From Leptolyngbyaceae cyanobacterium clean351 (GTDB taxonomy: Bacteria; Cyanobacteriota; Cyanobacteriia; DAIDHW01), in NCBI GenBank assembly GCA_027451865.1, contig DAIDHW010000001.1:145798-209797 (forward strand): a stretch of DNA of 64,000 nt, in the 5' to 3' direction. The position numbers and the translations under genes are program-made. This document shows, in pieces, positions 3,904 through 46,412 of this stretch (positions are counted from its first letter, which is position 1; each line of letters starts with the position of its first letter). The notes under the pieces were generated by a model. That model saw only the letters and a program-made list of their open reading frames with translations. It was not told the origin of the DNA and searched no databases.

Positions 3904-4206
3904 ATGACCCAGCGCCTATCCGATGAGGAACTAGCCCAAGCTTTACTGAGTCTACCTGGCTGGACCCTTGAGCACCAAAAGCTTCATCGTGTCTTTACCT
4001 TTCCCTCCTTTGTAGAAGCTTTTGGTTTCATGACCAGCCTAGCTCTGGTGGCAGAAGCCCTAAGCCACCACCCGGAATGGTCTAACATCTACAATCGGGT
4101 CGTCATTGACCTTACCACCCACGACCAGGGTGGCATAACCACCAAGGACCTGGAATGGGCTCGCCGGGCCGACCATCTTTCCCGGCTCTTTCCATGCAGT
4201 CCCTGA
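3904..4206 (+). CDS. phhB: Pterin-4a-carbinolamine dehydratase
   Basis: This small enzyme dehydrates 4a-hydroxytetrahydropterin and helps recycle pterin cofactors. The 100-residue length is typical. The signature [16 protein letters not shown] contains the paired catalytic histidines, followed by [11 protein letters not shown]. It starts two bases after the stop of the Lon-N gene and overlaps the start of aroB by 13 nt, so the three genes are probably cotranscribed. No phenylalanine hydroxylase is visible in the window, so the pterin-dependent partner is unknown here. Confidence 0.93.
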
Positions 4207-5288
4207 TCACAGTTGAACTGCCTGAAAACCCCTACCAGGTACTCATCAGCCCTGGGGTCCTGGCCTCCCTGGCCGAACACCTGCAAACCTTGAGACTAGG
4301 CCGCAAAATCCTGGTGGTCACTAACCCCACCCTCCAGCGTCACTACGGCCAGCAGGTGGTTACGTCCCTAGAAGCCCAGGGGTTTTCCGTAGGGGTATGT
4401 ATACTGCCAGCTGGAGAACGCTACAAAACCCTCCGCTCTGTGCAGAAGATCTACGACGCTGCTCTAGACCAGCAATTAGAGCGCTCCAGTACCCTGGTAG
4501 CCTTAGGGGGTGGGGTGGTAGGGGATATGGCCGGCTTTGCTGCCGCCACCTGGCTGCGGGGGATTGGGGTGGTCCAAGTGCCCACCAGCCTCCTGGCGAT
4601 GGTAGATGCTTCCATTGGCGGCAAGACTGGTGTTAATCATCCCCGGGGTAAGAACCTGATCGGAGCATTCCATCAACCACGGCTGGTAGTTATTGACCCC
4701 CAAGTCCTCAAGACCCTGCCCCGCCGGGAATTTCGCGCAGGTATGGCAGAGGTGATTAAGTACGGTGTGGTCTGGGACCAGACCCTATTTACCCATCTCG
4801 AAGCCCAATCCCGCCTCGATAACCTCCTTACTCCCGAGGCTCTACAGGTGGTCCTAACCCGCTCCTGCACCGCCAAAGCCCAGATTGTCGGTCAGGACGA
4901 GCGGGAGGCGGGGCTGAGGGCTATTCTTAACTACGGCCATACCATCGGCCACGCCCTAGAAAGCCTGACCAACTATCGCCTCATCAACCATGGGGAGGCC
5001 GTTGCCCTGGGTATGGGCCTGGCGGGGGAATTAGCCCTGAAGCTAGGACTGTGGGACCAAACCTCCTACCAACGTCAGCAGACCCTCCTAGAGCGAGCTG
5101 GCTTGGCAATCCCTATGCCTACTGGTTTAGAGCCCCAGGCTGTCCTTGCCTGTCTGCAGACGGATAAAAAAGTCATGGCGGGGCGGGTTAGATTTGTGCT
5201 CCCCACCGGCCTGGGTTCGGCGATAGTCACCGACCAGGTCCCTAGGGACTTAGTGGAGCAACTGTTGGTGAACCATCTGGGGGCCTGA
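4194..5288 (+). CDS. aroB: 3-dehydroquinate synthase
   Basis: AroB converts DAHP to 3-dehydroquinate, the second step of the shikimate pathway, using NAD and a divalent metal. The 364-residue protein carries the NAD-binding [19 protein letters not shown] segment, the [17 protein letters not shown] loop, and metal-ligand regions HGEAVALGM and [12 protein letters not shown] place the start at ATG 4194 ([16 protein letters not shown]), overlapping phhB by 13 nt; an in-frame upstream ATG at 4155 gives a non-homologous extension. Other chorismate-related genes (tyrA, menF, aroH) lie at 25-28 kb but are not linked in an operon. Confidence 0.97.
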
Positions 5289-5480
5289 AGAGCCCCTGGC
5301 AAATTCGGGAGAGCCGGATACCTTAGGGGGATAAGATGGGGGGATAAATCATGGTGCCAGCTAGGTACTCTGATTGTATGACCCTAGGTTTGGTGTGGGC
5401 TACACACAAATTATCACTTCAGGTAAGTGCTCGCAGGGTCTCCAGACTAGCTGGCCAACCTTTATCAATACCCAAAATCC

Positions 5481-6401
5481 ATGTATAAGACTTTAGAACT
5501 ACCATCCCTGTTACTGAGTGCAGTTGGCGCGGTTGCTGCCATCATCACCCATCAAGTGGCCGTGGCAGTCCTGCCCTTTTCCCTGAGCTTAGGTTTAGGG
5601 TGGCTGGATCGTCAAGCACAATTGCAGCAATCCCTTGCTCTCAAGGAAAGCATCCAACGGCTAACTCCCACGATGGAAACCCTAGAGGCGCAATTGCAGT
5701 CTCTGCGCCAGAGTTTCAACCGCCGCTCTGAGCCGGAACAAATCAGTGCCCTACAGCAGAGCCTAATGAAACTAGAGCAATCGGCAACTGAAATCCACCA
5801 GCTCCTACCGGCTATCCAAACTAACACCGAGCGGCTAGAGGTCCTTGAGTCCCAGCTACCAACGATCCAGACTGCCACTGGACGGTTAGACCATTTGGAA
5901 CCTCTAGTCGGCACCCTAGAGGCTCAGCAAGGTCAGCTGCTGGTTCGCTTGAGTGACCTCTGTGCCACCTTGAGTCAATGGCAGGCTCAGTTAACTGCCT
6001 TCAAGGAAGAGTTTGAACAGCGATCCGAACCCCAGCAGATTGCCAGTCTGCAACAGGGGTTAGCCAACCTGGCAGACTCTCTAACCAACCTCCAGCAATT
6101 TATCCCTCGCCTAGAGGAGTATACCCAACGGATTGGCACCCTTGAGACTTTAATCAGCGACATCAGAGCCCACCAGAATCTGGTAGATGCTCAGCTAGCA
6201 GAAATTTGGCCGGCTCCCCAGGGAGAGCAACCAGTTCTGGAGTTCCTAGCCCCCTCCCGGGAGGAAGAGCCTTCCGAGGAAAGCCTCCAGCCCCCGCGTC
6301 AGTCCATCCAGGAACGCGGTAAACCCAAGGACGAACAAGCAAGACGGGAGGAGGAGGGTGTTGAAACCCTAGAGAGTTTTTTTGATGAGTTGTTGTTTTA
6401 G
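5481..6401 (+). CDS. Membrane-anchored coiled-coil protein, function unknown
   Basis: The 306-residue product has one or two hydrophobic segments at its N-terminus (about residues 8-40), then a long heptad-rich region to about 245 with repeated blocks such as EQISALQQSLMKLEQS and QQIASLQQGLANLADS, and an acidic, Pro-rich tail ending ESFFDELLF. The internal similarity suggests duplication of a unit of roughly 100 residues (FNRRSEPEQI versus FEQRSEPQQI). I do not recognise a named family. The layout suggests a membrane-tethered structural or scaffold protein. It is preceded by a 192-nt non-coding stretch and converges on fmdB with only 7 nt between the genes. Confidence 0.75.
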   Translation: MYKTLELPSLLLSAVGAVAAIITHQVAVAVLPFSLSLGLGWLDRQAQLQQSLALKESIQRLTPTMETLEAQLQSLRQSFNRRSEPEQISALQQSLMKLEQSATEIHQLLPAIQTNTERLEVLESQLPTIQTATGRLDHLEPLVGTLEAQQGQLLVRLSDLCATLSQWQAQLTAFKEEFEQRSEPQQIASLQQGLANLADSLTNLQQFIPRLEEYTQRIGTLETLISDIRAHQNLVDAQLAEIWPAPQGEQPVLEFLAPSREEEPSEESLQPPRQSIQERGKPKDEQARREEEGVETLESFFDELLF

Positions 6402-6408
6402 GGTCGGG

Positions 6409-6666
6409 TTAATGGCCAATCATCCAAGGGCGGTGGGTGGCTTGATGAACCCGGGGCTTCCCCTCATCCCTTGATTTAGTGACTAGTCGAGGTTCAGGGT
6501 CAGGGCGCTTCGGACGCAGGGGGCTTGATAGGAGGGTGGGAGCAGAAAAAATCCGCCTTCCCTCTCCTTGGCAGACGGGGCAGTTGGCGGGGGCAGCAGA
6601 CTCTGCCATGGTACGCCAAAGATCAAAGGTACCACAGGAATTACAGCGAAATTCGTACAAAGGCAT
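6409..6666 (-). CDS. fmdB: FmdB-type zinc-ribbon protein
   Basis: An 85-residue protein beginning MPLYEFRCNSCGTFDLW, with CxxC pairs at CNSC and CPVC, is the FmdB/CxxC_CxxC regulatory-protein fold. In Methylophilus the fmdB product is associated with expression of formamidase; biochemical function remains uncertain. Here it is the third gene after the NCS1 permease and fmdA on the minus strand, 59 nt downstream of fmdA, which supports a link to amide use. The C-terminal half is basic and probably disordered. Confidence 0.88.
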   Translation of the reverse strand: MPLYEFRCNSCGTFDLWRTMAESAAPANCPVCQGEGRRIFSAPTLLSSPLRPKRPDPEPRLVTKSRDEGKPRVHQATHRPWMIGH

Positions 6667-6725
6667 GGGACCAACAATCTAGAAGGGGGGCCGAGACCGA
6701 ATCCCGACCCCCAAGGACAATTAAC

Positions 6726-7931
6726 CTAAACCGGCAGTATATCCTGGTCGAATATTTCCGTGGGGATAGCTAGAGTACAACAGGCGTTGGGAATGTCGAC
6801 GATCCCGCTGACCCGCCCCTCAATGGGGGCACAACTTAGGAGCAAGTAGGCTTGCTCACCGGTATAGCCAAACTTTTTCAGGTACTCGATGGCATTAAGG
6901 CAAGCCCGGCGGTAAGCTACGTGCACATCAAGGTAGTACTGTTTGCCTGTGAACTCATCTACGGAGATCCCCTCGAACACCAGGTACTCCGAGTAGCGAG
7001 GCTCAACCGGACCGGTTTTGAAGACCGGATTCACTAAGCCGTACTTCTCAACTCCCCCTTTGATCAAATCAACATGCAGGTCAAGATAACCAGACATTTC
7101 AATTGCCCCGCAGAAGGAGATCTCTCCGTCTCCCTGGGAAAAGTGAATATCCCCCATGGAAAGTTTGGCACCCTCCACATAGACCGGGAAGTAGATCCGG
7201 GTACCGCGGGAGAGGTTTTTGATGTCACAGTTCCCCCCGTGTTCCCGGGGTGGCACGGTCCGGGCTCCCTCGGCGGCTACCCGGGCAAATTCACTAGCGG
7301 GAAGCTGACCCAAAATGGCGTTTTGCGGGTTGGGTAGGGCCGCCAATACGGGCTTGTCACCTGCGAAGCCGGTGCCGTAGGAACGCAGGTCGTAGGTGCT
7401 GTCAACTAATTCCTTTTCCCGCTGATTCCACTTCTTGAGTAACTCAGGGGAAGGGGCACAGCCAATCAGCCCTGGGTGGGTAATGCCGGCAAATCTGACC
7501 CCGGGAATGTGGCGGGAGCTGGTATAGATGCCCTGAAAGTCCCAGATGGCCTTAGCGGCCTGGGGGTAGTGGTCAGTGAGAAAACCTCCCCCATTGTTCT
7601 TGTCGAAGATGCCAGTAAAGCCCCACTCATCTCCCTGTAAAGCCCCAATATCCACGATCTCAACTACTAGAATATCCCCGGGCTGAGCGCCATTGACCCA
7701 CACCGGGCCGCTCAGAACGTGAACAACACTCAAGTCCACATCGCGGACGTCATCGGGGCTGTCATTATTTTTGATCTGCCCATCGGTCCAATCCTTACAC
7801 TCAATCCGGAAAACATCCCCCGGATTAACCGAGACGGCAGCAGGGATATCAGGGTGCCAACGATTGTGACCAGGTAACTCCTGCTGGTCCATCGGCTTGG
7901 TTAGGTCTACTTTGAACAGAGTTTTAGGCAC
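6726..7931 (-). CDS. fmdA: Formamidase/acetamidase
   Basis: FmdA hydrolyses short aliphatic amides, chiefly formamide, to the acid and ammonia. The product (401 residues) is full length and contains FmdA/AmdA family segments: HNRWHPDIPAAVSVNPGD, QPGDILVVEIVDIG, FAGITHPGLIGCAPS, REHGGNCDIKNLSRG and HFSQGDGEISFCGAIE. I choose the GTG at 7931 because AGGAG ends 6 nt before it; the TTG at 7937 directly abuts AGGAG and cannot be served by it. It follows the NCS1-type transporter by about 50 nt and precedes fmdB, so uptake, hydrolysis and regulation of an amide are probably encoded in one leftward operon supplying ammonium. Confidence 0.95.
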   Translation of the reverse strand: MPKTLFKVDLTKPMDQQELPGHNRWHPDIPAAVSVNPGDVFRIECKDWTDGQIKNNDSPDDVRDVDLSVVHVLSGPVWVNGAQPGDILVVEIVDIGALQGDEWGFTGIFDKNNGGGFLTDHYPQAAKAIWDFQGIYTSSRHIPGVRFAGITHPGLIGCAPSPELLKKWNQREKELVDSTYDLRSYGTGFAGDKPVLAALPNPQNAILGQLPASEFARVAAEGARTVPPREHGGNCDIKNLSRGTRIYFPVYVEGAKLSMGDIHFSQGDGEISFCGAIEMSGYLDLHVDLIKGGVEKYGLVNPVFKTGPVEPRYSEYLVFEGISVDEFTGKQYYLDVHVAYRRACLNAIEYLKKFGYTGEQAYLLLSCAPIEGRVSGIVDIPNACCTLAIPTEIFDQDILPV

Positions 7932-31488: not shown

Positions 31489-33375
31489 TTGATTACTGCC
31501 CTAAGTCACCTTGGTGAGCTGTGGGGACGCTGGTGGGCCCGAGTTACGCTCCAAACTCGGCTGATGGCCGCGGCGACCCTGGTAATTTCCATCCTCATGA
31601 GCAGCCTCACCTTCTGGGCTGTGAATACTATTCAAGAGGATGCCCGCCTCAATGACACCCGGTTTGGCCGAGACCTGGGTTTGCTCCTGGCGGCTAACGT
31701 GGCTCCCCTGCTAGGGGAGGACAGGCTGACCCAGATGGCCAGCTTCACTCACCAGTTTTATAGCAGTACTTCTAGCCTCAGCTACATACTCTACGCGGAC
31801 CCAGCTGGGGAAGTTTCCCTAGGAATCCCCTTTTCTGACTCGGAGGTTCAGAACTCTCTCACTATTCGGCGCCGGATGCAACTGCCCGAGGACTACGCCC
31901 AGAATTCAGAACTACCTCTGGTCCGTCAGCACCACACCCCCGACGGCGAGGTAACGGATGTTTTCGTACCCTTAAGTTACGAAGGTAAATACCTGGGAGT
32001 ACTGGCAATTGGCATCAACCCCAACCCTACTCTGGTCACTTCTTCACGCCTGACTCAAGACATCACCACCGCGGTATTCGTCTCCATCTGGGTGATGATG
32101 ATCCTTGGGGCAGTCTTCAATGCTCTGACCGTGACCCAACCGATTAAGGAACTACTAGTGGGGGTAAAAAATATTGCCGCTGGCAATTTCCACCAGCGAG
32201 TAGAACTGCCCCTAGGAGGAGAATTGGGGGAGCTGATCGGTAGCTTTAACGAAATGGCCGAGCGCCTAGAGCGCTATAACGAACAGAACATTGAGGAGCT
32301 AACCGCTGAAAAGGCCAAGCTAGAAACCCTAATGTTGACCATTGCCGACGGTGCCGTCTTGCTTGATACCCAGTTGAACCTAGTCTTGGCTAACCCCACT
32401 GCCCGGCGCATCTTCGGTTGGGATGCCGTGGTGGGAGACCCGATCCTTAAGCACCTCCCCCCCAACTTCCAAGAACAACTGCATCAGCCCTTGCGCCAGC
32501 TTGCCCAAGGAGAGCTTGAGGGGGCAGAGTTCCGCCTCACTCTCAACCAGCCCCATCCTCGTACCCTGTACATCCTCCTAACTACCGTCCTCGATCAGTA
32601 CCGGGAAAACACTAAGGGAATTGCCATGACCGTCCAGGACATTACCCGGGAGGTCCAGTTGAATGAGGCCAAAAGCCAATTTATTAGCAATGTTTCCCAC
32701 GAGCTCCGGACACCGCTGTTCAATATCAAGTCCTTCATTGAGACACTGCACGACTACGGCCCAGAGCTGTCGGAGGCGGAGCGGCAGGAGTTCTTAGAGA
32801 CGGCCAATCGAGAAACTGACCGGCTGACCCGGTTAGTTAACGATGTCCTCGATCTATCTCGCCTCGAATCTGCCCAGCGCTACCCTTTAGACGCAGTAGA
32901 CCTTGCCCAGACTGTTGAGCAGATCCTGCGCACCCACCAACTTAACGCCCGGGATAAGGGAATTCACCTCGCCCAGGAGCTGTTCTCTCCTCTGGCGCCA
33001 GTATTAGGCAACTATGACCTTTTACTGCAGGTGTTTGCTAACTTGGTAGGCAACGCCCTGAAGTTTACTCCTCCCGGAGGCCGGGTGGTAATCCGGGTCT
33101 ACCCCTTTGACTCCGACCGGGTCCGGGTAGAAGTGTCAGACACCGGCATAGGAATCGACCCGCAAGACCAAAAGGCCGTGTTCGAGCGGTTTTTCCGCGC
33201 CGAAAACCGAGTCCACACCCTTGAGGGCACTGGCTTGGGGTTGTCGATTGTCCTTAATATCCTTGACAAACACCACAGTCAAGTTCACCTGGTCAGTGAA
33301 GTGGGAGTCGGCACCACATTTTGGTTTGACCTATGTGCGTATCACGACCAGGAGGGTCGCCCGCAGACAGTCTAG
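31489..33375 (+). CDS. nblS: Sensor histidine kinase NblS (Hik33/DspA)
   Basis: NblS is the conserved cyanobacterial membrane kinase that signals high light, cold, redox and nutrient stress, mainly to RpaB. The 628-residue protein shows TM1 (26-47), an extracytoplasmic sensor loop (48-190), TM2 (191-215), HAMP (216-268), PAS (275-385), HisKA with H404 in SHELRTPLFN, and an HATPase with GNALKFTPP, DTGIGI and GTGLGLSI. The start is TTG 31489: the residues after it (LWGRWWARVTLQTRLMAAAT) match NblS proteins, so an internal ATG would cut conserved sequence. It converges on ycf3 with a 2-nt gap. Confidence 0.95.
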   Translation: MITALSHLGELWGRWWARVTLQTRLMAAATLVISILMSSLTFWAVNTIQEDARLNDTRFGRDLGLLLAANVAPLLGEDRLTQMASFTHQFYSSTSSLSYILYADPAGEVSLGIPFSDSEVQNSLTIRRRMQLPEDYAQNSELPLVRQHHTPDGEVTDVFVPLSYEGKYLGVLAIGINPNPTLVTSSRLTQDITTAVFVSIWVMMILGAVFNALTVTQPIKELLVGVKNIAAGNFHQRVELPLGGELGELIGSFNEMAERLERYNEQNIEELTAEKAKLETLMLTIADGAVLLDTQLNLVLANPTARRIFGWDAVVGDPILKHLPPNFQEQLHQPLRQLAQGELEGAEFRLTLNQPHPRTLYILLTTVLDQYRENTKGIAMTVQDITREVQLNEAKSQFISNVSHELRTPLFNIKSFIETLHDYGPELSEAERQEFLETANRETDRLTRLVNDVLDLSRLESAQRYPLDAVDLAQTVEQILRTHQLNARDKGIHLAQELFSPLAPVLGNYDLLLQVFANLVGNALKFTPPGGRVVIRVYPFDSDRVRVEVSDTGIGIDPQDQKAVFERFFRAENRVHTLEGTGLGLSIVLNILDKHHSQVHLVSEVGVGTTFWFDLCAYHDQEGRPQTV

Positions 33376-39467: not shown

Positions 39468-39892
39468 AGGAGTGCTAGGAGATAAGTGAAGAGTTTGGCA
39501 GTAACTTGACCCTGTCTATTATGGCGGATTCCTAGTCTCCTCGACTGTCTTGGCTCTGCAGAAGCTAGGACGTACAAAGCCTAGGGGAGAAATTGCTGTC
39601 ATCGGCCACATCAGGTATCCAGAGCAATCTGGCCAGCCCCCCCAGACGCTCTTAACAAGTTAGACAGAGACATCCAGCTGCAGCCCTAGGGGGCAAAGAT
39701 ACAGGGTATAGTGGAGGCCTTGCCCTTAGACTGGTAATTAATGGGGCTAGTATGACTTTCAGGAAATTTCTGAGGGTATTTAGGCTACTTAGCTCCGGCC
39801 AACCCCAAGGGCTGCCGTGGTTGCGACTTAATTGTTAAGAATTGCAACATACGAAGACCAGGTCAACTCTTAACGTCTACTGGCACACTGAT
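39468..39892. promoter_or_regulatory. 425-nt divergent intergenic region
   Basis: It separates the PepSY gene (leftward) from the acidic conserved protein (rightward). I see no gene, tRNA or clear structured RNA. A TATAGT at 39717-39722 could be a -10 element without a good -35. An ORF start at 39842 is in frame with the next gene but is not favoured. Confidence 0.3.
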
Positions 39893-40987
39893 ATGGCAAT
39901 CAGCAATGACTTTGAGCAAGAACTTATCGCCGGCAACGTTACTCAGGCTTTTGCTTTGGCTCTTAGTCAGGCAACCCGCTTAAGGATCACTACCTGGGTT
40001 GCTGCTCCCGACGCAGACCCCTTGGCTGTGCGGCTGCAAACTCAAATAAATCTCCTAGAGGGGGAAGTAGAGCATCAAATTGGGGCCGCGGCCCTGGAGC
40101 GTAATGATTACAGTAATTTGAAAGATTTCCACCTGTCCCAGGTGCACCAGGCAGGGACAGTAGTTCTAGATAATTTGGCCGCCTTGCAAAAGCTATGGGA
40201 AGTGTGGACTAGGATCCAAGTGCCAGGCATGCTGCCGGGCCGAGAAGAGGCAAGTATCCCCAGCCCTGCGGCGGCAAAACCACTAGTGACGGAGGTGGAG
40301 TCAGCCTTTGTGCCGTCCCCGGCCCCCACTGAGCTGGGAGATGAAGCCCCCGCGGTAACACTGGCCCCCGCCGAGCTGGGAGATGTAGATGAGCAAGGAG
40401 AACTGACCCTCCCAAGCGAAGCATTTGGCTTTGAAACCGTTGATCTTCTGATCAACGAGCTGGACACTATGGAGATTCCCTTCAGTTCCATTGGTGCCGA
40501 GCTCGAAGCCCTTGATCAAGAGCAGACTGCCCATGGCATTGAGGACCTTGACCCTGGCGAAGACACCCTATCAGACCTAGACAGTCCGGGTTTGGTGCTT
40601 AGTTCTCCTAGTCATCAGACCCCCCCCCGGGGGCAATCTTTGATGGACCTACTAACTGAGCCAGAGGAAGAGGAGTCTGTTCCCCAAGCCCCCGGCACGG
40701 CCGCCGAGGTGCTTTCTGGTCTGCGAGATGAATCCCTGGGGCCCTTAGCCGTCAATAACTCAACCCCCTCAGCCACCGCCGCCGCCAATGTCAGTATCGA
40801 AGAGTTATTAGCCAACTTGTTTTCTGCTCCCTATCCCCTAGCTACAGATTCAAGCCCTCGGGAAGCAGCTGTATTTGAGGAACTAACCTCCTTTGCCGAC
40901 GCCGATGTGTTTGCCGACTCAGACTTTTTCGAGAGTCTAGCTGATGAGATTCAAGCCCATAGTTCTCAAGGAGAGGAGAAAACCTAG
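39893..40987 (+). CDS. Conserved cyanobacterial protein with acidic Pro-rich tail
   Basis: From ATG 39893 the product has 364 residues. Residues 1-110 form a conserved helical domain (MAISNDFEQELIAGNVTQAF, LRITTWVAAPDADP, RLQTQINLLEGEVEHQIG) that I recall in many cyanobacterial hypothetical proteins. The rest is acidic, rich in Pro, Ser and Glu and probably disordered, with a near-duplicated TELGDEAPAVTLAP/AELGDVDEQGELTLP unit and a C-terminal DADVFADSDFFESLADEI motif. No membrane segment. Function unknown. It converges with the histidine kinase gene (11-nt gap). Confidence 0.75.
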   Translation: MAISNDFEQELIAGNVTQAFALALSQATRLRITTWVAAPDADPLAVRLQTQINLLEGEVEHQIGAAALERNDYSNLKDFHLSQVHQAGTVVLDNLAALQKLWEVWTRIQVPGMLPGREEASIPSPAAAKPLVTEVESAFVPSPAPTELGDEAPAVTLAPAELGDVDEQGELTLPSEAFGFETVDLLINELDTMEIPFSSIGAELEALDQEQTAHGIEDLDPGEDTLSDLDSPGLVLSSPSHQTPPRGQSLMDLLTEPEEEESVPQAPGTAAEVLSGLRDESLGPLAVNNSTPSATAAANVSIEELLANLFSAPYPLATDSSPREAAVFEELTSFADADVFADSDFFESLADEIQAHSSQGEEKT

Positions 40988-40998
40988 AGCTTAGGGAT

Positions 40999-43407
40999 TC
41001 ACTTGAGACTAGCGGCTAGGGCCTGTCTGATCACCCCAAGCAGAGAAGCATCTGGGGCGAGACTGCCTTGGTCGTGGCAATAGGTGAACAGCTTAAGCTG
41101 GGGGACCTCCTGACCAATGGTTTTTCCACTTTCGTTGGTGGTGACTAGGGGCAAGTTAGACAGGAGCGGTTGCTGACTAAGCTGTTCGAGATAATCCCCA
41201 GAGAGCTTCTGTCCCATCTCCTCTAGGAGCACCACCTGGGGTTGCCATACCCGGGTCAGTAATTCTGCTTGGTCTAGGTCATCGGCCTCCAGAATCCGCC
41301 AGTCTTGGGTGTGCATTAGATTACGTAGCTCGCCTGCCAAGGGAGTATCTCCCGCCGCCTCCTCGGGATGCCAGCCGGGCACAATTAGGCGCAACAAGGT
41401 GAGCTGACGACTAGGGGGTTTAGGATTAGCTCCTGGTAGGCGCTCTAGGACTTCCCGCAGGGACTCTGGCACCACGGGCAGGTTAAGAAAACTGTCGGCG
41501 CGTTTGAGGGCTCGGCTCTTTTCCCCCCGACTGGCCACTACAACCACCGGGATCTGTTGAGTTGTTGGGTTAGACTTCAGGAGTGTTAAAACATCCCAGC
41601 CGGAAAGAATCGGCAACAGAGGATTGATGAAAATAATACAGGGGCGCAGACGCCGGGCTTTTTCTAAGGCCTCCGTCCCGGACCGAGCAACAACGACATG
41701 ATAGCCTTGGTCTATCAGGTGGCGGTGTAAGTCCTCCGTAAAACAGGCAGCAGCCTCCACTACCAAAGCTAGTCGATTAGGCTCGTGTTGGGCATTCTTA
41801 GGAGCATCCCCCTCCGGTTGTGGGGGTAGGAGCAGGGTAAACTCACTACCTTGACCTTCTCGGGAAATGAAAGTTACGTCCCCACCGTGGAGGCGGGCCA
41901 AGCGTTGAGTGAGAACTAACCCCAGGCCTGTACCTTCATATCGCCGGGTTAAGGGATGCTCTAGTTGTTGAAACTTTTGGAACACCAAGTGCTGCTTATC
42001 GACGGGAATGCCAATCCCCGTATCCCAAATCGTAAAGGCAATCCAATCTTGCCAACGATTGACCTTCAGGCCCACAGTCCCGGCCTTGTCGGTGAACTTG
42101 AGAGCATTAGAAATCAAATTGGTGAGCATCTGGCTCAGGCGAGTCTCATCAGCAACTATTTCCTCAATACCCGGGCCAATCTCTAGGAGGATCGGCCGGT
42201 CTTCACTCACCTCCTCAGGACTGAGGGGGGTTTCAAACTTCTCTACACGAAGACTTTGGGCTTGGACAACCACTCGCTCACATAGAACCCGCACGTCGAT
42301 GGTTTCTAGCTCTAGTTCTAGCTGAGCAGTTTCAACCCTTGTTAGATCGAGAATATCATTGACAATCCCGCTCAGTTGACGACCGCTCTGGTAGATGAGC
42401 TGCACGTAACGCATCTGCCGCAGGTTGAGGTCTCCGAGGAGTTTTTCCTGCAGCAGACTTGACAAACCTAGAACTGCCGTCAGAGGGGTTTTCAGTTCAT
42501 GGCTAATGCACGAGAGAAACTCATCCTTTAAGCTGTTGAGCTGGACTAGGTCGGCATTCCTAGCAACTAGCTCTTGGGCCGCCTGGTGTTCCTCGGTCCG
42601 GTCGAGGGCAATCACTAACCAGAGGGCCCCCTCTGGATCGGCTCCCAGGAGGGGGTCGGGAGCCGTTGGCTCTAGGGCTCCTAGTTGGAATTTACTTAAC
42701 TGTCGCACCGGATTACCCGGCATCCCAGGACCGTGCATAAAGTCAAGGGCAATCCGACTGAATTGCCAGACCCGCTCTTGGCCATTTTTCAGGGGACAGA
42801 CGCAGATACAGGTTTGGGGTTCACTGCCAGCTCGACAGTAGCTCCCCTCTTCTGGGATATCCGTGGTGTGGCCGAGAAGATGGGCGGCCTCCTGCTGCAG
42901 CCAGCCCGGGTCCCGCAGCTCTCCTACTTGCTGACGCCAAAGGGAGTTTTGTAGCACTACGCGACCATTACTAGTCTGGATCATTAGGGGCACTGGCAGC
43001 TTTTCCAGCATGTGGTGAGCCAGAGCCAGCTTTTTAACCGGCCCCTGTTGCATGAACTGGGGAACATTTAACAAGCCCAGGAAATTCCCCTGCCGGTCAA
43101 CAAACCCCCAGGCGTCCTTTTGCAGGGGTTGATTCTCCATCCAGTCCCAAAACCTCTCCAAGGACCAGTCAACAGGCACCAGATTCAAGGGGGAAAGACG
43201 GGGGATCTCCGCCCCGCCTTGGTCCCGCAGCAGGTAAGGAAGCACACTGCGCAGAGTCAAAAGCCCTAGAGGTTCACCGGAGGACCCTAGGACTACTAGG
43301 GAGTCCCACTCCCCTTGCCGAAAAACATCTAGGATGCGCCCCAGACCATCGGTCTTACGACAGGTAGGCACCGGTTCTAAAAAGGCTTGCAGGGGAAAAG
43401 TGGTCAT
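40999..43407 (-). CDS. CBS/PAS sensor histidine kinase with two degenerate receiver-like modules
   Basis: The 802-residue soluble protein has an N-terminal CBS-like pair (about 1-125), a PAS-like region (130-275), HisKA with H303 in SHELKTPLT, and an HATPase with N434 (SNALKFTD), DTGIGIP (462-468) and EGTGLGL (491-497). Residues 545-660 form a receiver whose phospho-acceptor position is Asn (IIFINPLLP, N595), with the acidic pair and the usual Lys (FLNLPV) also lost. Residues 670-802 look like a second, more diverged receiver. No membrane segment is present. The gene is divergent from kaiA across 181 nt, so a clock link is plausible, though unproven. Confidence 0.88.
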   Translation of the reverse strand: MTTFPLQAFLEPVPTCRKTDGLGRILDVFRQGEWDSLVVLGSSGEPLGLLTLRSVLPYLLRDQGGAEIPRLSPLNLVPVDWSLERFWDWMENQPLQKDAWGFVDRQGNFLGLLNVPQFMQQGPVKKLALAHHMLEKLPVPLMIQTSNGRVVLQNSLWRQQVGELRDPGWLQQEAAHLLGHTTDIPEEGSYCRAGSEPQTCICVCPLKNGQERVWQFSRIALDFMHGPGMPGNPVRQLSKFQLGALEPTAPDPLLGADPEGALWLVIALDRTEEHQAAQELVARNADLVQLNSLKDEFLSCISHELKTPLTAVLGLSSLLQEKLLGDLNLRQMRYVQLIYQSGRQLSGIVNDILDLTRVETAQLELELETIDVRVLCERVVVQAQSLRVEKFETPLSPEEVSEDRPILLEIGPGIEEIVADETRLSQMLTNLISNALKFTDKAGTVGLKVNRWQDWIAFTIWDTGIGIPVDKQHLVFQKFQQLEHPLTRRYEGTGLGLVLTQRLARLHGGDVTFISREGQGSEFTLLLPPQPEGDAPKNAQHEPNRLALVVEAAACFTEDLHRHLIDQGYHVVVARSGTEALEKARRLRPCIIFINPLLPILSGWDVLTLLKSNPTTQQIPVVVVASRGEKSRALKRADSFLNLPVVPESLREVLERLPGANPKPPSRQLTLLRLIVPGWHPEEAAGDTPLAGELRNLMHTQDWRILEADDLDQAELLTRVWQPQVVLLEEMGQKLSGDYLEQLSQQPLLSNLPLVTTNESGKTIGQEVPQLKLFTYCHDQGSLAPDASLLGVIRQALAASLK

Positions 43408-43588
43408 GAAGGCCTACAAAAAGCCGGTTGGAAAATCTGATGGTATTCCTATCCTCAGGATAATCATTCTTCTCAGACAAGGAACGGGTTTTGCAATTAG
43501 ACTTGACTATGGTGGTTACTAAAGTTAACCTAAATTCGCCTTTGGCTCCCTGGATTTACGGCAGCACATTTCCGCACGGCTGAAACCC

Positions 43589-44395
43589 TTGACTTCTACC
43601 CTGACGATCGCCGCCTTTGTGCCATCTGGAGACCTGGAGGCTTCCCTGAAGCATCAGCTGCCCCAGGACCATTACAGTCTGACTTGCTGCCGGTCAGCCC
43701 CTGAATTCGTGCGCCTCATGGAACACGAACATGAGAACTTAGACTGTCTGGTACTAGGCAGCAGCCCCGACTTACCGCAACTGACGGCATCCCTACGGGA
43801 GGAGTCCCTACTCCTGCCGGCTTTGATTATTCAAGCGGATGACTCTGACCCTGTGTGCTACCAGCCCGCCTACCACTCGGCTGAGGTGTGGTCCACTCCA
43901 GAAGATGACCTCGGAAGCTCGATTACCAGGGCAATCTGCCGCTTTCTGGCCTTAAATCCCACGGCAGACAAGGCGTCCGAGACCACTGCCGGCAGAACTA
44001 AACGCTTGAACCAGCGCCTCCAGGGACGCCTAGGATACCTAGGCATCTACTACAAACGTGACCCCTACAAGTTCTACCGACGTCTCTCATCAGGGGAGCG
44101 GGAGGCCTTTGTCAAGCAGCTAGAGGCAGACTACCGGCAAATTATTCTGCGGTACTTTACTGACGACAGTAGCCTCACTGACCATATCGATCACTTTGTG
44201 AATTCTGCCTTTTGCGCTGACATGCCTGTCTCTAAGATTGTCCAGATTCATATGGACTTAATGGACCAGTTTGCCAAACAACTCAAGATGGAAGGCCGCC
44301 GGGAGGAAATTTTGTTAGATTATCGGTTGACCCTAATCGACGTGATCGCCCACCTGTGTGAAATGTACCGACGCTCCATTCCTCAAGGATCCTGA
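43589..44395 (+). CDS. kaiA: Circadian clock protein KaiA
   Basis: KaiA stimulates KaiC autophosphorylation by binding its A-loop. The 268-residue protein is essentially full length: an N-terminal pseudo-receiver (1-125) and the C-terminal four-helix dimer domain (about 150-265) with RLGYLGIYYKRDPYKFYRRL, FVNSAFCADMPVSKIVQIHM and EILLDYRLTLIDVIAHLCEM. The start is TTG 43589 (MTSTLTIAAFVPS), which aligns with the S. elongatus N-terminus; no in-frame ATG lies close upstream. A 7-bp CCTAGG-centred hairpin lies inside the gene at 44028-44044. Confidence 0.97.
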   Translation: MTSTLTIAAFVPSGDLEASLKHQLPQDHYSLTCCRSAPEFVRLMEHEHENLDCLVLGSSPDLPQLTASLREESLLLPALIIQADDSDPVCYQPAYHSAEVWSTPEDDLGSSITRAICRFLALNPTADKASETTAGRTKRLNQRLQGRLGYLGIYYKRDPYKFYRRLSSGEREAFVKQLEADYRQIILRYFTDDSSLTDHIDHFVNSAFCADMPVSKIVQIHMDLMDQFAKQLKMEGRREEILLDYRLTLIDVIAHLCEMYRRSIPQGS

Positions 44396-44425: not shown

Positions 44426-44740
44426 ATGATTCCCTTAAAAAAGACCTACATTCTCAAACTCTACGTAGCCGGGAACACTCCCAACTCGGTGCGGGCGCTG
44501 AAAACTCTGAAGAACATCCTCGAGTTGGAGTTTCAGGGAGTGTACATCCTTAAAGTCATTGATGTACTCAAAAACCCCCAGTTGGCGGAGGAGGATAATA
44601 TTCTGGCTATTCCCACCCTGACGAAGGTTTTGCCTCCCCCTGTGCGTAAAATCATCGGTGACTTATCAGACCGGGAGAAGGTACTGATTGGCTTAGACTT
44701 ACTCTACGAAGAGTTGCGGGAGGACGAAGAAAATTTATAA
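44426..44740 (+). CDS. kaiB: Circadian clock protein KaiB
   Basis: KaiB is the thioredoxin-like, fold-switching protein that binds the KaiC CI ring and sequesters KaiA. The 104-residue protein has the conserved [40 protein letters not shown] and [22 protein letters not shown]. The acidic tail ([10 protein letters not shown]) is typical. It is 30 nt after kaiA and 112 nt before kaiC. That kaiB-kaiC spacing exceeds the kaiA-kaiB spacing, opposite to the S. elongatus layout. Confidence 0.98.
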
Positions 44741-44852
44741 TTTGTGTGCATTATTTGCAGCTGCCGTGATAGTCTCTAGGGGTGTACTCTGATTGTTTTA
44801 TTAGCTCAATTCAGCTTTGAAAAGCTTACTTATCCCACCGCCCTGATTGTAC

Positions 44853-46412
44853 ATGAATCCTTACCACCCAAGTGCTAACTCCTTAGCAAAAAGTGTTCAG
44901 AAAATCCCAACTTTAATTGAGGGTTTTGATGACGTCAGCCATGGGGGCATACCTCTAGGGAGAACTACCCTAGTTTCGGGTACCTCCGGCACGGGCAAGA
45001 CGGTCTTTTCGACTCAATTTATCTACAATGGCATCACAGCTTTTGACGAACCAGGAATATTTGTCACCTTTGAAGAGTCCACCGCCGATATCATTAAGAA
45101 TGCTCGGAGCTTCGGCTGGGATTTACAGGCCCTAATCGACAAGGAGAGCTTGTTTATCTTGGATGCATCCCCTGACCCGGAGGGCCAGGAGGTGGTAGGT
45201 AGCTTCGATCTATCAGCCCTCATTGAGCGTATTCAGTATGCAATACGCAAATACAAGGCCAAACGGATTTCCATTGACTCAATGACAGCCGTATTCCAAC
45301 AGTACGAAGCAGCCTCCGTGGTGCGGCGGGAGATCTTTAGGTTGGTAGCCCGGCTGAAGCAACTGGGGATCACGACTCTGATGACCGCGGAGCGTCTTGA
45401 TGAGTACGGGCCTGTAGCCCGCTTTGGGGTGGAGGAGTTCGTCTCCGATAACGTAATCATTGTCCGCAATGTTTTACAGGGGGAAAGGCGGCGGCGGACG
45501 GTAGAGATTCTCAAGCTAAGGGGCACTACCCATATGAAGGGAGAATATCCCTTCACTATTAATAACCAGGGGGTCAACGTCTTTCCCCTGGGGGCTATGC
45601 GACTTACCCAGCGCTCCTCAAACCAGCGGGTTTCCTCCGGGGTTGCCACCCTTGACCAGATGTGCGGAGGTGGGTTTTTCCGTGACTCGATTATCTTGGC
45701 CACTGGGGCTACCGGCACTGGTAAAACCCTCCTAGTTAGTAAGTTTATTGAAGAGGCTTGTCGCTCCGGGGAGAAAGCCACCTTTTTTGCCTATGAGGAG
45801 TCTCGAGCTCAGCTATTTCGCAATGCTACCTCCTGGGGGATCAACTTTGAGGAATACGAAAAAAACGGGCTGCTGAAAATTATCTGTGCCTACCCAGAAT
45901 CAGATTCCCTTGAAGACCACCTGCAAATTATCAAAGAAGAAATATTTGACTTCAAGCCCGCCCGCTTGGCGGTAGACTCTCTGTCTGCCTTGGCTCGGGG
46001 AGTCAGTGATAACTCCTTTCGTCAATTTATTATTGGGGTGACTGGTTTTGCTAAACAGGAAGGGATTACAGGATTTTTCACCAATACCAGTGACCAGTTT
46101 ATGGGGTCTAGCTCCCTAACCGACTCCCATATTTCCACGATTACCGATACCATCATCCTGCTGCAGTACGTGGAAGTTCACGGTGAGATGTCTCGAGCTA
46201 TCAACGTTTTCAAGATGCGTGGCTCCGCCCATGAGAAGGGGATCCGGGAATTCTCGATCAGCGGCCAAGGTCCAGACATCAAGGATTCCTTCCGTAACCT
46301 AGAGCGAATTACCAGCGGCTCACCTACCCAAATTCGAGTTGACGAAAAGAGTGATCTTTCGCGGATCGTCAAGGGGGTTGAGGGGAGGATAGGTCCCGCT
46401 GACGATCTTTAA
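44853..46412 (+). CDS. kaiC: Circadian clock ATPase/kinase KaiC
   Basis: KaiC is the hexameric autokinase, autophosphatase and ATPase at the core of the clock. From ATG 44853 it has 519 residues and two RecA-like domains. CI Walker A is GTSGTGKT (43-50), CII Walker A GATGTGKT (285-292). Catalytic Glu pairs are in VTFEES and AYEES. The phosphorylation cluster is intact: T423, S428 and T429 in [11 protein letters not shown] correspond to T426, S431 and T432 of S. elongatus. The A-loop region ([18 protein letters not shown]) is present. A TTG two codons earlier is in frame. Its 3' end overlaps lipB by 44 nt. Confidence 0.99.

Follow-up and report, generated by a model that had tools for sequence, protein, structure and literature searches.

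The kai locus and its divergent kinase

We analysed a 64,000-nucleotide (nt) stretch of the genome of Leptolyngbyaceae cyanobacterium clean351 (contig DAIDHW010000001.1, positions 145,798 to 209,797 of the forward strand; hereafter the window), which contains a kaiABC cluster. The gene for a hybrid-type histidine kinase lies on the reverse strand, followed across a short intergenic region by kaiA, kaiB and kaiC on the forward strand (Table 1). This kinase belongs to a family found head to head with kaiA in most of the sampled genomes that carry both genes, and its two receiver-like modules each lack residues needed for phosphorylation. Both traits can be read from the sequences themselves; the coupling to the clock, the partner and the direction in which the kinase would act are what we infer from them.

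Table 1 Features of the kinase-kaiABC locus. Positions are those of the window; residue numbers refer to the kinase; aa, amino acids; PsR, pseudo-receiver.
Feature	Position	Strand	Basis or remark
Kinase open reading frame (ORF), hybrid-type histidine kinase, 802 aa	40999..43407	-	ATG start; head to head with kaiA
CBS pair, residues 6-120, likely adenine-nucleotide-type input module	43048..43392	-	Pfam, AlphaFold, Foldseek
PAS-like fold, residues ~126-270	42598..43032	-	Pfam, β-sheet of model, Foldseek
HisKA dimerisation/phosphoacceptor domain, residues 294-360	42328..42528	-	Pfam, 63.7 bits
H303 codon, phospho-acceptor His	42499..42501	-	His in 82/82 aligned family members
HATPase_c, residues 420-530	41818..42150	-	Pfam, 99.3 bits; N, G1 and G2 motifs intact in window protein
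PsR1, residues 546-660	41428..41772	-	Pfam, family alignment, AlphaFold, structure alignment
N595 codon at phospho-Asp position	41623..41625	-	Asn in 70/82 family members
PsR2, residues 670-800	41008..41400	-	Profile comparison, AlphaFold; signature RxLEADDLxQAELLxRVW..LPLVT
Divergent intergenic region kinase/kaiA, 181 nt	43408..43588	.	ORF boundaries
kaiA, full length with N-terminal pseudo-receiver	43589..44395	+	First start codon TTG; Pfam KaiA, 196.9 bits
kaiB	44426..44740	+	Domain/family match
kaiC	44847..46412	+	Domain/family match

Linkage of the kinase family to kaiA

A sample of 386 genomes was searched across the phylum. KaiA was found in 159 of these, full kinase matches (E ≤ 1e-90) in 89 and the PsR2 profile in 104, almost always as a single copy per genome. 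For the linkage count, 150 listed KaiA places from the 159 positive genomes were compared with the 104 PsR2 places. Both are present in 100 genomes, 91 of which have them on the same contig within 8 kb of each other, and the orientation is head to head in all 91. Among the nine genomes not counted as near, a contig break is possible in two, as the kinase N-terminus of G097 sits next to kaiA where a contig ends and the two genes of G207 are on short contigs. Two further genomes with KaiA outside the 150 listed (G091 and G298) have kinase and kaiA together in their fetched loci. By our own count, KaiA occurs in 30 family-level groups, and in 23 of these at least one genome carries the kinase gene.

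A second sample consisted of 80 named loci fetched with KaiA. The kinase ORF lies upstream of kaiA on the opposite strand in 63 of them (one partial, at a contig end), including those of Microcystis, Trichodesmium, Okeania, Oscillatoria PCC 10802, Tychonema and Microcoleus; among the 80, it is absent from the Arthrospira PCC 9108, Planktothrix and Adonisia loci. The initial annotation proposed a search of kai neighbourhoods across cyanobacteria for a conserved divergent kinase, holding that proximity would be chance were homologues elsewhere unlinked to kai genes and cycling independently of the clock. Such a kinase is indeed there, and its homologues are linked. As a control, 24 other genes of the window (27955-58660) were searched in the same 80 loci. 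No match was obtained for 20 of these and a single match for each of three, while the NblS kinase gave 62 weak matches (≤115 bits), which we ascribe to cross-matching between kinase domains. The neighbourhood of kaiA is therefore otherwise scrambled, the kinase being the exception.

The family alignment comprises 82 kinase ORFs scoring above 100 bits, the window kinase included and the contig-cut ORF L154 left out. From the phylum, 120 loci were fetched, in which nine picocyanobacteria of family-level group f20 stand for many more; two further sets of relatives, A4 and A5, took in 56 of 61 and 49 of 57 candidates, respectively. In a kinase-core tree built from 51 of the 82 aligned kinases, the family rows form one clade against 19 other kinases (support 100/100), and rows located away from kaiA fall inside this clade; its inner branching order is uncertain, with long branches. 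The window kinase belongs to the family by clade, by PsR2 signature and by its position head to head with kaiA.

Two neighbouring genes may be mentioned here. NblS is encoded at 31489-33375 (+), about 8 kb from the kinase (equivalog, 1094 bits versus a cut-off of 1000), so that kaiABC of the host genome lies near two conserved signalling kinases; the NblS-kaiA linkage is apparently not kept in the 80 named loci. An ORF of 381 aa at 39842-40987 (+) is convergent with the kinase gene and separated from it by 11 bp; it has no Pfam or NCBIfam match and is present in none of the 80 named loci.

Input and catalytic domains

The CBS- and PAS-like input modules and the intact H303 and ATPase described in the initial annotation were borne out. 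By Pfam alone the input modules are faint, with a CBS match over residues 11-59 slightly below the cut-off (23.3 versus 24 bits) and a weak PAS match (E = 0.11). AlphaFold, run with alignments of relatives, models residues 1-288 as two CBS motifs and a PAS-like sheet with a predicted local distance difference test score (pLDDT) of 83.8. When this model was compared with the PDB by Foldseek, CBS-domain proteins took ranks 1-13 and FixL PAS domains ranks 14-15. As for the catalytic core, the window protein has the marks of a histidine kinase, with the H303 phospho-acceptor and intact N box, G1 and G2; this set is complete in 76 of the 82 aligned members, the window protein among the complete ones. 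No GAF domain (Pfam, E ≤ 1) and no Pfam match to PF07689, the KaiB-like domain, were found in the window kinase.

Tandem pseudo-receivers

The first receiver is recognised by Pfam as Response_reg (residues 548-639, 36.4 bits, cut-off 30.2), and E551-A552 occupy the position of the acidic pair, N595 that of the phospho-Asp, S626 that of the Thr/Ser and L643 that of the Lys. PsR1 has thus lost the phospho-Asp, the Lys and the second Asp of the acidic pair. The initial annotation was correct in reporting Asn for Asp and loss of the Lys, but its loss of the acidic pair holds for the second position only, the first being Glu. Residues 536-802 are modelled by AlphaFold, again with relatives' alignments, as two consecutive (βα)5 receiver folds (mean pLDDT 88.1). 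PsR1 aligns with solved receivers at Z up to 19.9 (root-mean-square deviation 1.5, 118 aligned; VIA-align), and matches of the C-terminal part in the PDB include the tandem receivers of PleD and single receivers such as DivK. Pfam does not detect the second receiver in the window protein; its profile matches PsR1 at a probability of 89.9, and its receiver fold rests on this profile and the AlphaFold model, as the structure-match rows scarcely cover PsR2. Together these agree with the second degenerate receiver-like module first proposed from the sequence.

PsR1 ranks second-lowest of 37 receiver matches in its own genome, and its losses are common to the orthologues, a degeneracy that, judged from these comparisons, exceeds chance. 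In the 82 aligned members, the phospho-Asp site is Asn in 70, Asp in five, Ser in three, Gln in one, Arg in one and a gap in two, and the Lys site is Lys in only three. A dead PsR1 is a trait of the kinase family. At the corresponding site, PsR2 has Asp in 60 of the 82 members, and Glu (E729) in the window protein. Neither an acidic pair nor a Lys was seen for PsR2 when the family alignment was inspected by eye, and PsR2 is classed as a pseudo-receiver because these partners are missing. The phosphorylatable Asp, acidic pair and Lys of a canonical hybrid kinase are not found as a set in the window protein.

Longer relatives carry a third module: 52 of the 82 members have at least 120 extra residues with a receiver-like module (PsR3) that resembles PsR1 at 74% profile probability over 45 columns. 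Its signature, EWFQALIQYLQTAGF, follows PsR2 in, for example, L124 and L103, and is without counterpart in the window protein. A truncated PsR3 in another frame behind the window gene was considered and rejected: the six frames of 39501-43600 gave no significant match to the PsR3 profile (best E 0.22), so the module is absent from the window gene rather than frameshifted.

Members with a decayed ATPase

Six of the 82 members have lost at least one of the N-box Asn, G1 Asp and G2 Gly, while the phospho-acceptor His is kept in all 82. The six come from five family-level groups (f4, f17, f19 twice, f23 and f24), Thermosynechococcus included, and retain both PsR2 and the position beside kaiA. Identity to consensus falls to 27-51% in their HATPase domains (80% in intact members) and to 21-37% in PsR1 (63% in intact members), and HisKA identity also drops; PsR2, at 35-50% versus a median of 53%, is the least relaxed domain. 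The name kinase accordingly does not suit all members of the family. The decayed members sit at several points of the tree as its long branches, so the number of independent ATPase losses is uncertain.

For the copy compared between genomes of the Thermosynechococcus group, dN/dS is 0.16 overall, 0.02 in HisKA and 0.14-0.18 in HATPase (0.09 for kaiA). The low values overall and in HisKA indicate that this copy is not decaying freely, and the predicted pseudokinase is, by this measure, under purifying selection. KaiA of an f19 genome is nearly identical to the solved KaiA 5jwr_E, which we take to be that of Thermosynechococcus. In a separate case, the 2.8-Mb genome G147 (locus L108), the kinase beside kaiA is reduced to remnants, and kaiB is split over two frames.

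A possible role in the clock

We tentatively favour, giving it not quite an even chance, a clock-coupled, CikA-like sensor histidine kinase of the kai locus, with pseudo-receivers that would serve to bind partners rather than to accept phosphate. The linkage to kaiA, the single clade, the PsR1 losses, the retention of PsR2 and the purifying selection count for this proposal, as does genome G039, in which no match to KaiA, to KaiC1-type proteins or to PsR2 was found although its genus-mates have the kinase; this single genome points to a joint loss of kinase and clock genes. Under the proposal, the CBS/PAS module would read metabolic or energy state. H303 would be unable to pass phosphate within the protein, and PsR1 would gate the kinase core. 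PsR2, with PsR3 where present, would dock a partner, most likely a Kai complex and there a KaiB/KaiC state rather than KaiA itself. Precedents from ShkA and CikA are the reason for favouring PsR1 as gate and PsR2 as Kai docking module. As no receiver appears able to take phosphate, H303 would serve an outside regulator, or else the protein would act as a phosphatase or docking platform. The output could be phosphorylation or dephosphorylation of a separate response regulator, with RpaA the obvious candidate. Members with a decayed ATPase might act by binding, or via the E-x-x-T/N motif beside the kept His, presumably a phosphatase motif.

Several observations weigh against this proposal. The PsR2 profile did not find the family, among the 386 genomes, in groups f9, f10, f13, f14, f18, f20 and f26 or in those genomes of genus g6 (group f6) that were sampled. 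Group f10 includes the one Synechococcus elongatus-like genome sampled, in which the gene was not found; f10 KaiA aligns over its full length with the solved KaiA 1r8j (555 bits), which we take to be that of S. elongatus. The family is lacking in 50 of the 150 genomes with a listed KaiA, so that a Kai clock can do without the kinase. In at least six genomes the kinase lies away from kaiA. Genome G255 has an intact kinase and kaiB1C1, the kinase far from kaiBC, and no detectable KaiA, which argues, as a single genome, against KaiA as the partner. In G326 (locus L160, ~4047-7875), an intact 927-aa kinase lies next to a deletion in which kaiB and the greater part of both kaiA and kaiC were lost, leaving the end of kaiA followed by the end of kaiC. 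If this deletion is neither recent nor an error of assembly, this one genome argues against a strict need for the clock. Profile likeness between PsR2 and the KaiA N-domain is weak (probability 42.9, E 2.5e-4; 1.5% for PsR1), and no CikA receiver chain is among the 50 VIA-align rows listed, which does not exclude one. With likeness at this level, descent of the KaiA N-domain from PsR2, or the reverse, was considered and is not claimed. G157 and G262, genus-mates of G255, have KaiA away from the kinase.

One rival is a self-gated sensor kinase of the ShkA type that serves a non-clock pathway, its pseudo-receivers gating by intramolecular contacts, its output going to some other response regulator and its position beside kaiA being an ancestral arrangement without functional tie. 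The intact kinases of G255 and G326, the conserved kinases away from kaiA and input domains that suggest a general metabolic sensor all speak for it. However, inertia alone should have broken the kinase-kaiA pair in most groups, because the other gene order is not kept, and the pseudokinase forms stay beside kaiA, although no catalytic role elsewhere is obvious for a decayed kinase. We regard this explanation as unlikely.

The intergenic region was inspected for a purely regulatory tie, in which a bidirectional control region would let the kinase's regulon control kaiA expression without any contact with the clock at the protein level. The constant head-to-head orientation and a median ORF gap of 321 nt are in its favour. 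Across 135 kinase-kaiA pairs, pooled from two genome sets in which the same organism sometimes occurs twice, however, the gap varies between 57 and 3053 nt, ten pairs having more than 1000 nt. Neither a sigma-70-like promoter nor a standout RpaB-type site was found in the 181-nt gap of the window. With the HLR1 pattern, which we take to represent RpaB-type sites, a single match with three mismatches was obtained in this gap, at 43515, and the four matches in the window compare with a shuffle mean of 4.57; control of the shared region by RpaB or RpaA was rejected, this number being expected by chance. The 181-nt distance given in the initial annotation is correct. Since gaps vary so much among relatives and neither a promoter nor an RpaB-type site stands out, sharing a control region with kaiA says little in favour of a clock role. 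According to PMC5520375, kaiA transcripts moreover oscillate little, and we consider a purely regulatory tie quite improbable. As a side observation, the 8-mers CAAGGTTC, AAGGTTCT and ATAATTCC occur above shuffles in 14-16 of 59 kinase-kaiA intergenic regions (CAAGGTTC in 14 versus 1.5 expected); kinship of the regions is uncorrected in these counts, and the enrichment is for that reason unused as evidence.

Least probable of all, and in our view very doubtful, is a scaffold or titrating factor. A partner from the clock or from transcription would dock on the HisKA dimer together with PsR2, and kinase activity would be a relic that is no longer required. The ATPase losses, found in five family groups at several positions in the tree and accompanied by retention of HisKA and PsR2, agree with it, as does the selection on the Thermosynechococcus copy. 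The losses lie on long branches and are uncertain in number, however, and catalysis appears to matter in most lineages, since the four catalytic marks tested are all present in 76 of 82 members and in these HATPase is about as conserved as HisKA.

Returning to the clock-coupled kinase, the family may, and this we put forward with somewhat more reserve, constitute, in addition to SasA and CikA, a third two-component protein associated with the clock in most cyanobacterial families with KaiA. It would sense metabolism via CBS/PAS and dock onto Kai proteins via PsR2, would be missing from the S. elongatus lineage and would persist as a binding-only pseudokinase in several lineages. Most of what is known about input to and output from the clock was learned in S. 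elongatus, whose sampled relative is without sign of the kinase. If the proposal is true, a partner fixed beside kaiA in Nostoc-like cyanobacteria, Microcystis, Trichodesmium, Oscillatoria and Microcoleus would fill a gap in the account of how the clock is set or read across the phylum, and it would include a pseudokinase under purifying selection in Thermosynechococcus, a source of Kai structures. The natural series from kinase to pseudokinase offers a chance to ask what pseudo-receivers do.

Comparison with known systems

In the open-licence literature, we found no publication on a kinase family fixed beside kaiA that combines tandem pseudo-receivers with recurrent pseudokinase forms. The Anabaena PCC 7120 orthologue is presumably all2883, judging from kaiA being alr2884 (PMC8064755); the tag all2883 appears in one paper only, within a list (PMC2633013). 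Identity of the window kinase with CikA or SasA was considered and is ruled out by the domains, there being no GAF and no KaiB-like domain. Its best kinase matches in its own genome are a receiver-GAF-like kinase and a HAMP-like hybrid kinase (domains read by eye), neither of them CikA; no gene for CikA was located in the host genome.

HrmK (NF038297) is the best NCBIfam model of the window kinase, matching residues 274-624 at 256.8 bits, far under the curated cut-off of 725. According to PMC5520375, a Rhodobacter sphaeroides histidine kinase lies in an operon with kaiBC and has been suggested as an input. Likened by description only, it shares the link to kai genes with the window kinase but belongs to another phylum, and its gene is in an operon rather than divergent. 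To our knowledge, this R. sphaeroides operon has no kaiA. SasA, the clock output kinase, is likewise a clock-associated HisKA kinase; in contrast to the window kinase it has an N-terminal KaiB-like domain, and KaiB-domain kinases fall on the opposite side of the tree. An ORF with a KaiB domain and kinase matches is found elsewhere in the host genome (G000:C4). The N-terminal pseudo-receiver of KaiA is a degenerate receiver at the same locus, but its profile similarity is weak to PsR2 and nil to PsR1.

CikA, the circadian input kinase of S. elongatus, is a histidine kinase with a C-terminal, non-phosphorylatable pseudo-receiver, as is the window kinase. The CikA PsR binds KaiB in its fold-switched form, and CikA acts as a phosphatase on RpaA. 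The window kinase differs in having a CBS pair and PAS in place of a GAF domain, and two or three tandem pseudo-receivers occur in its family. The window kinase gene adjoins kaiA, whereas the CikA gene is, we assume, not linked to kai genes. ShkA of Caulobacter is a hybrid kinase whose pseudo-receiver can block HisKA; it has a genuine receiver, unlike the window kinase, none of whose receivers has the full phosphorylation set. We know of no link between ShkA and a clock. A GAF domain before the kinase core defines CikA according to PMC12691664. A 2025 review of pseudo-receivers (PMC12632262) states that the CikA PsR inhibits autophosphorylation and binds KaiB, and that the ShkA pseudo-receiver blocks HisKA. 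The component parts of the window kinase are of known kinds.

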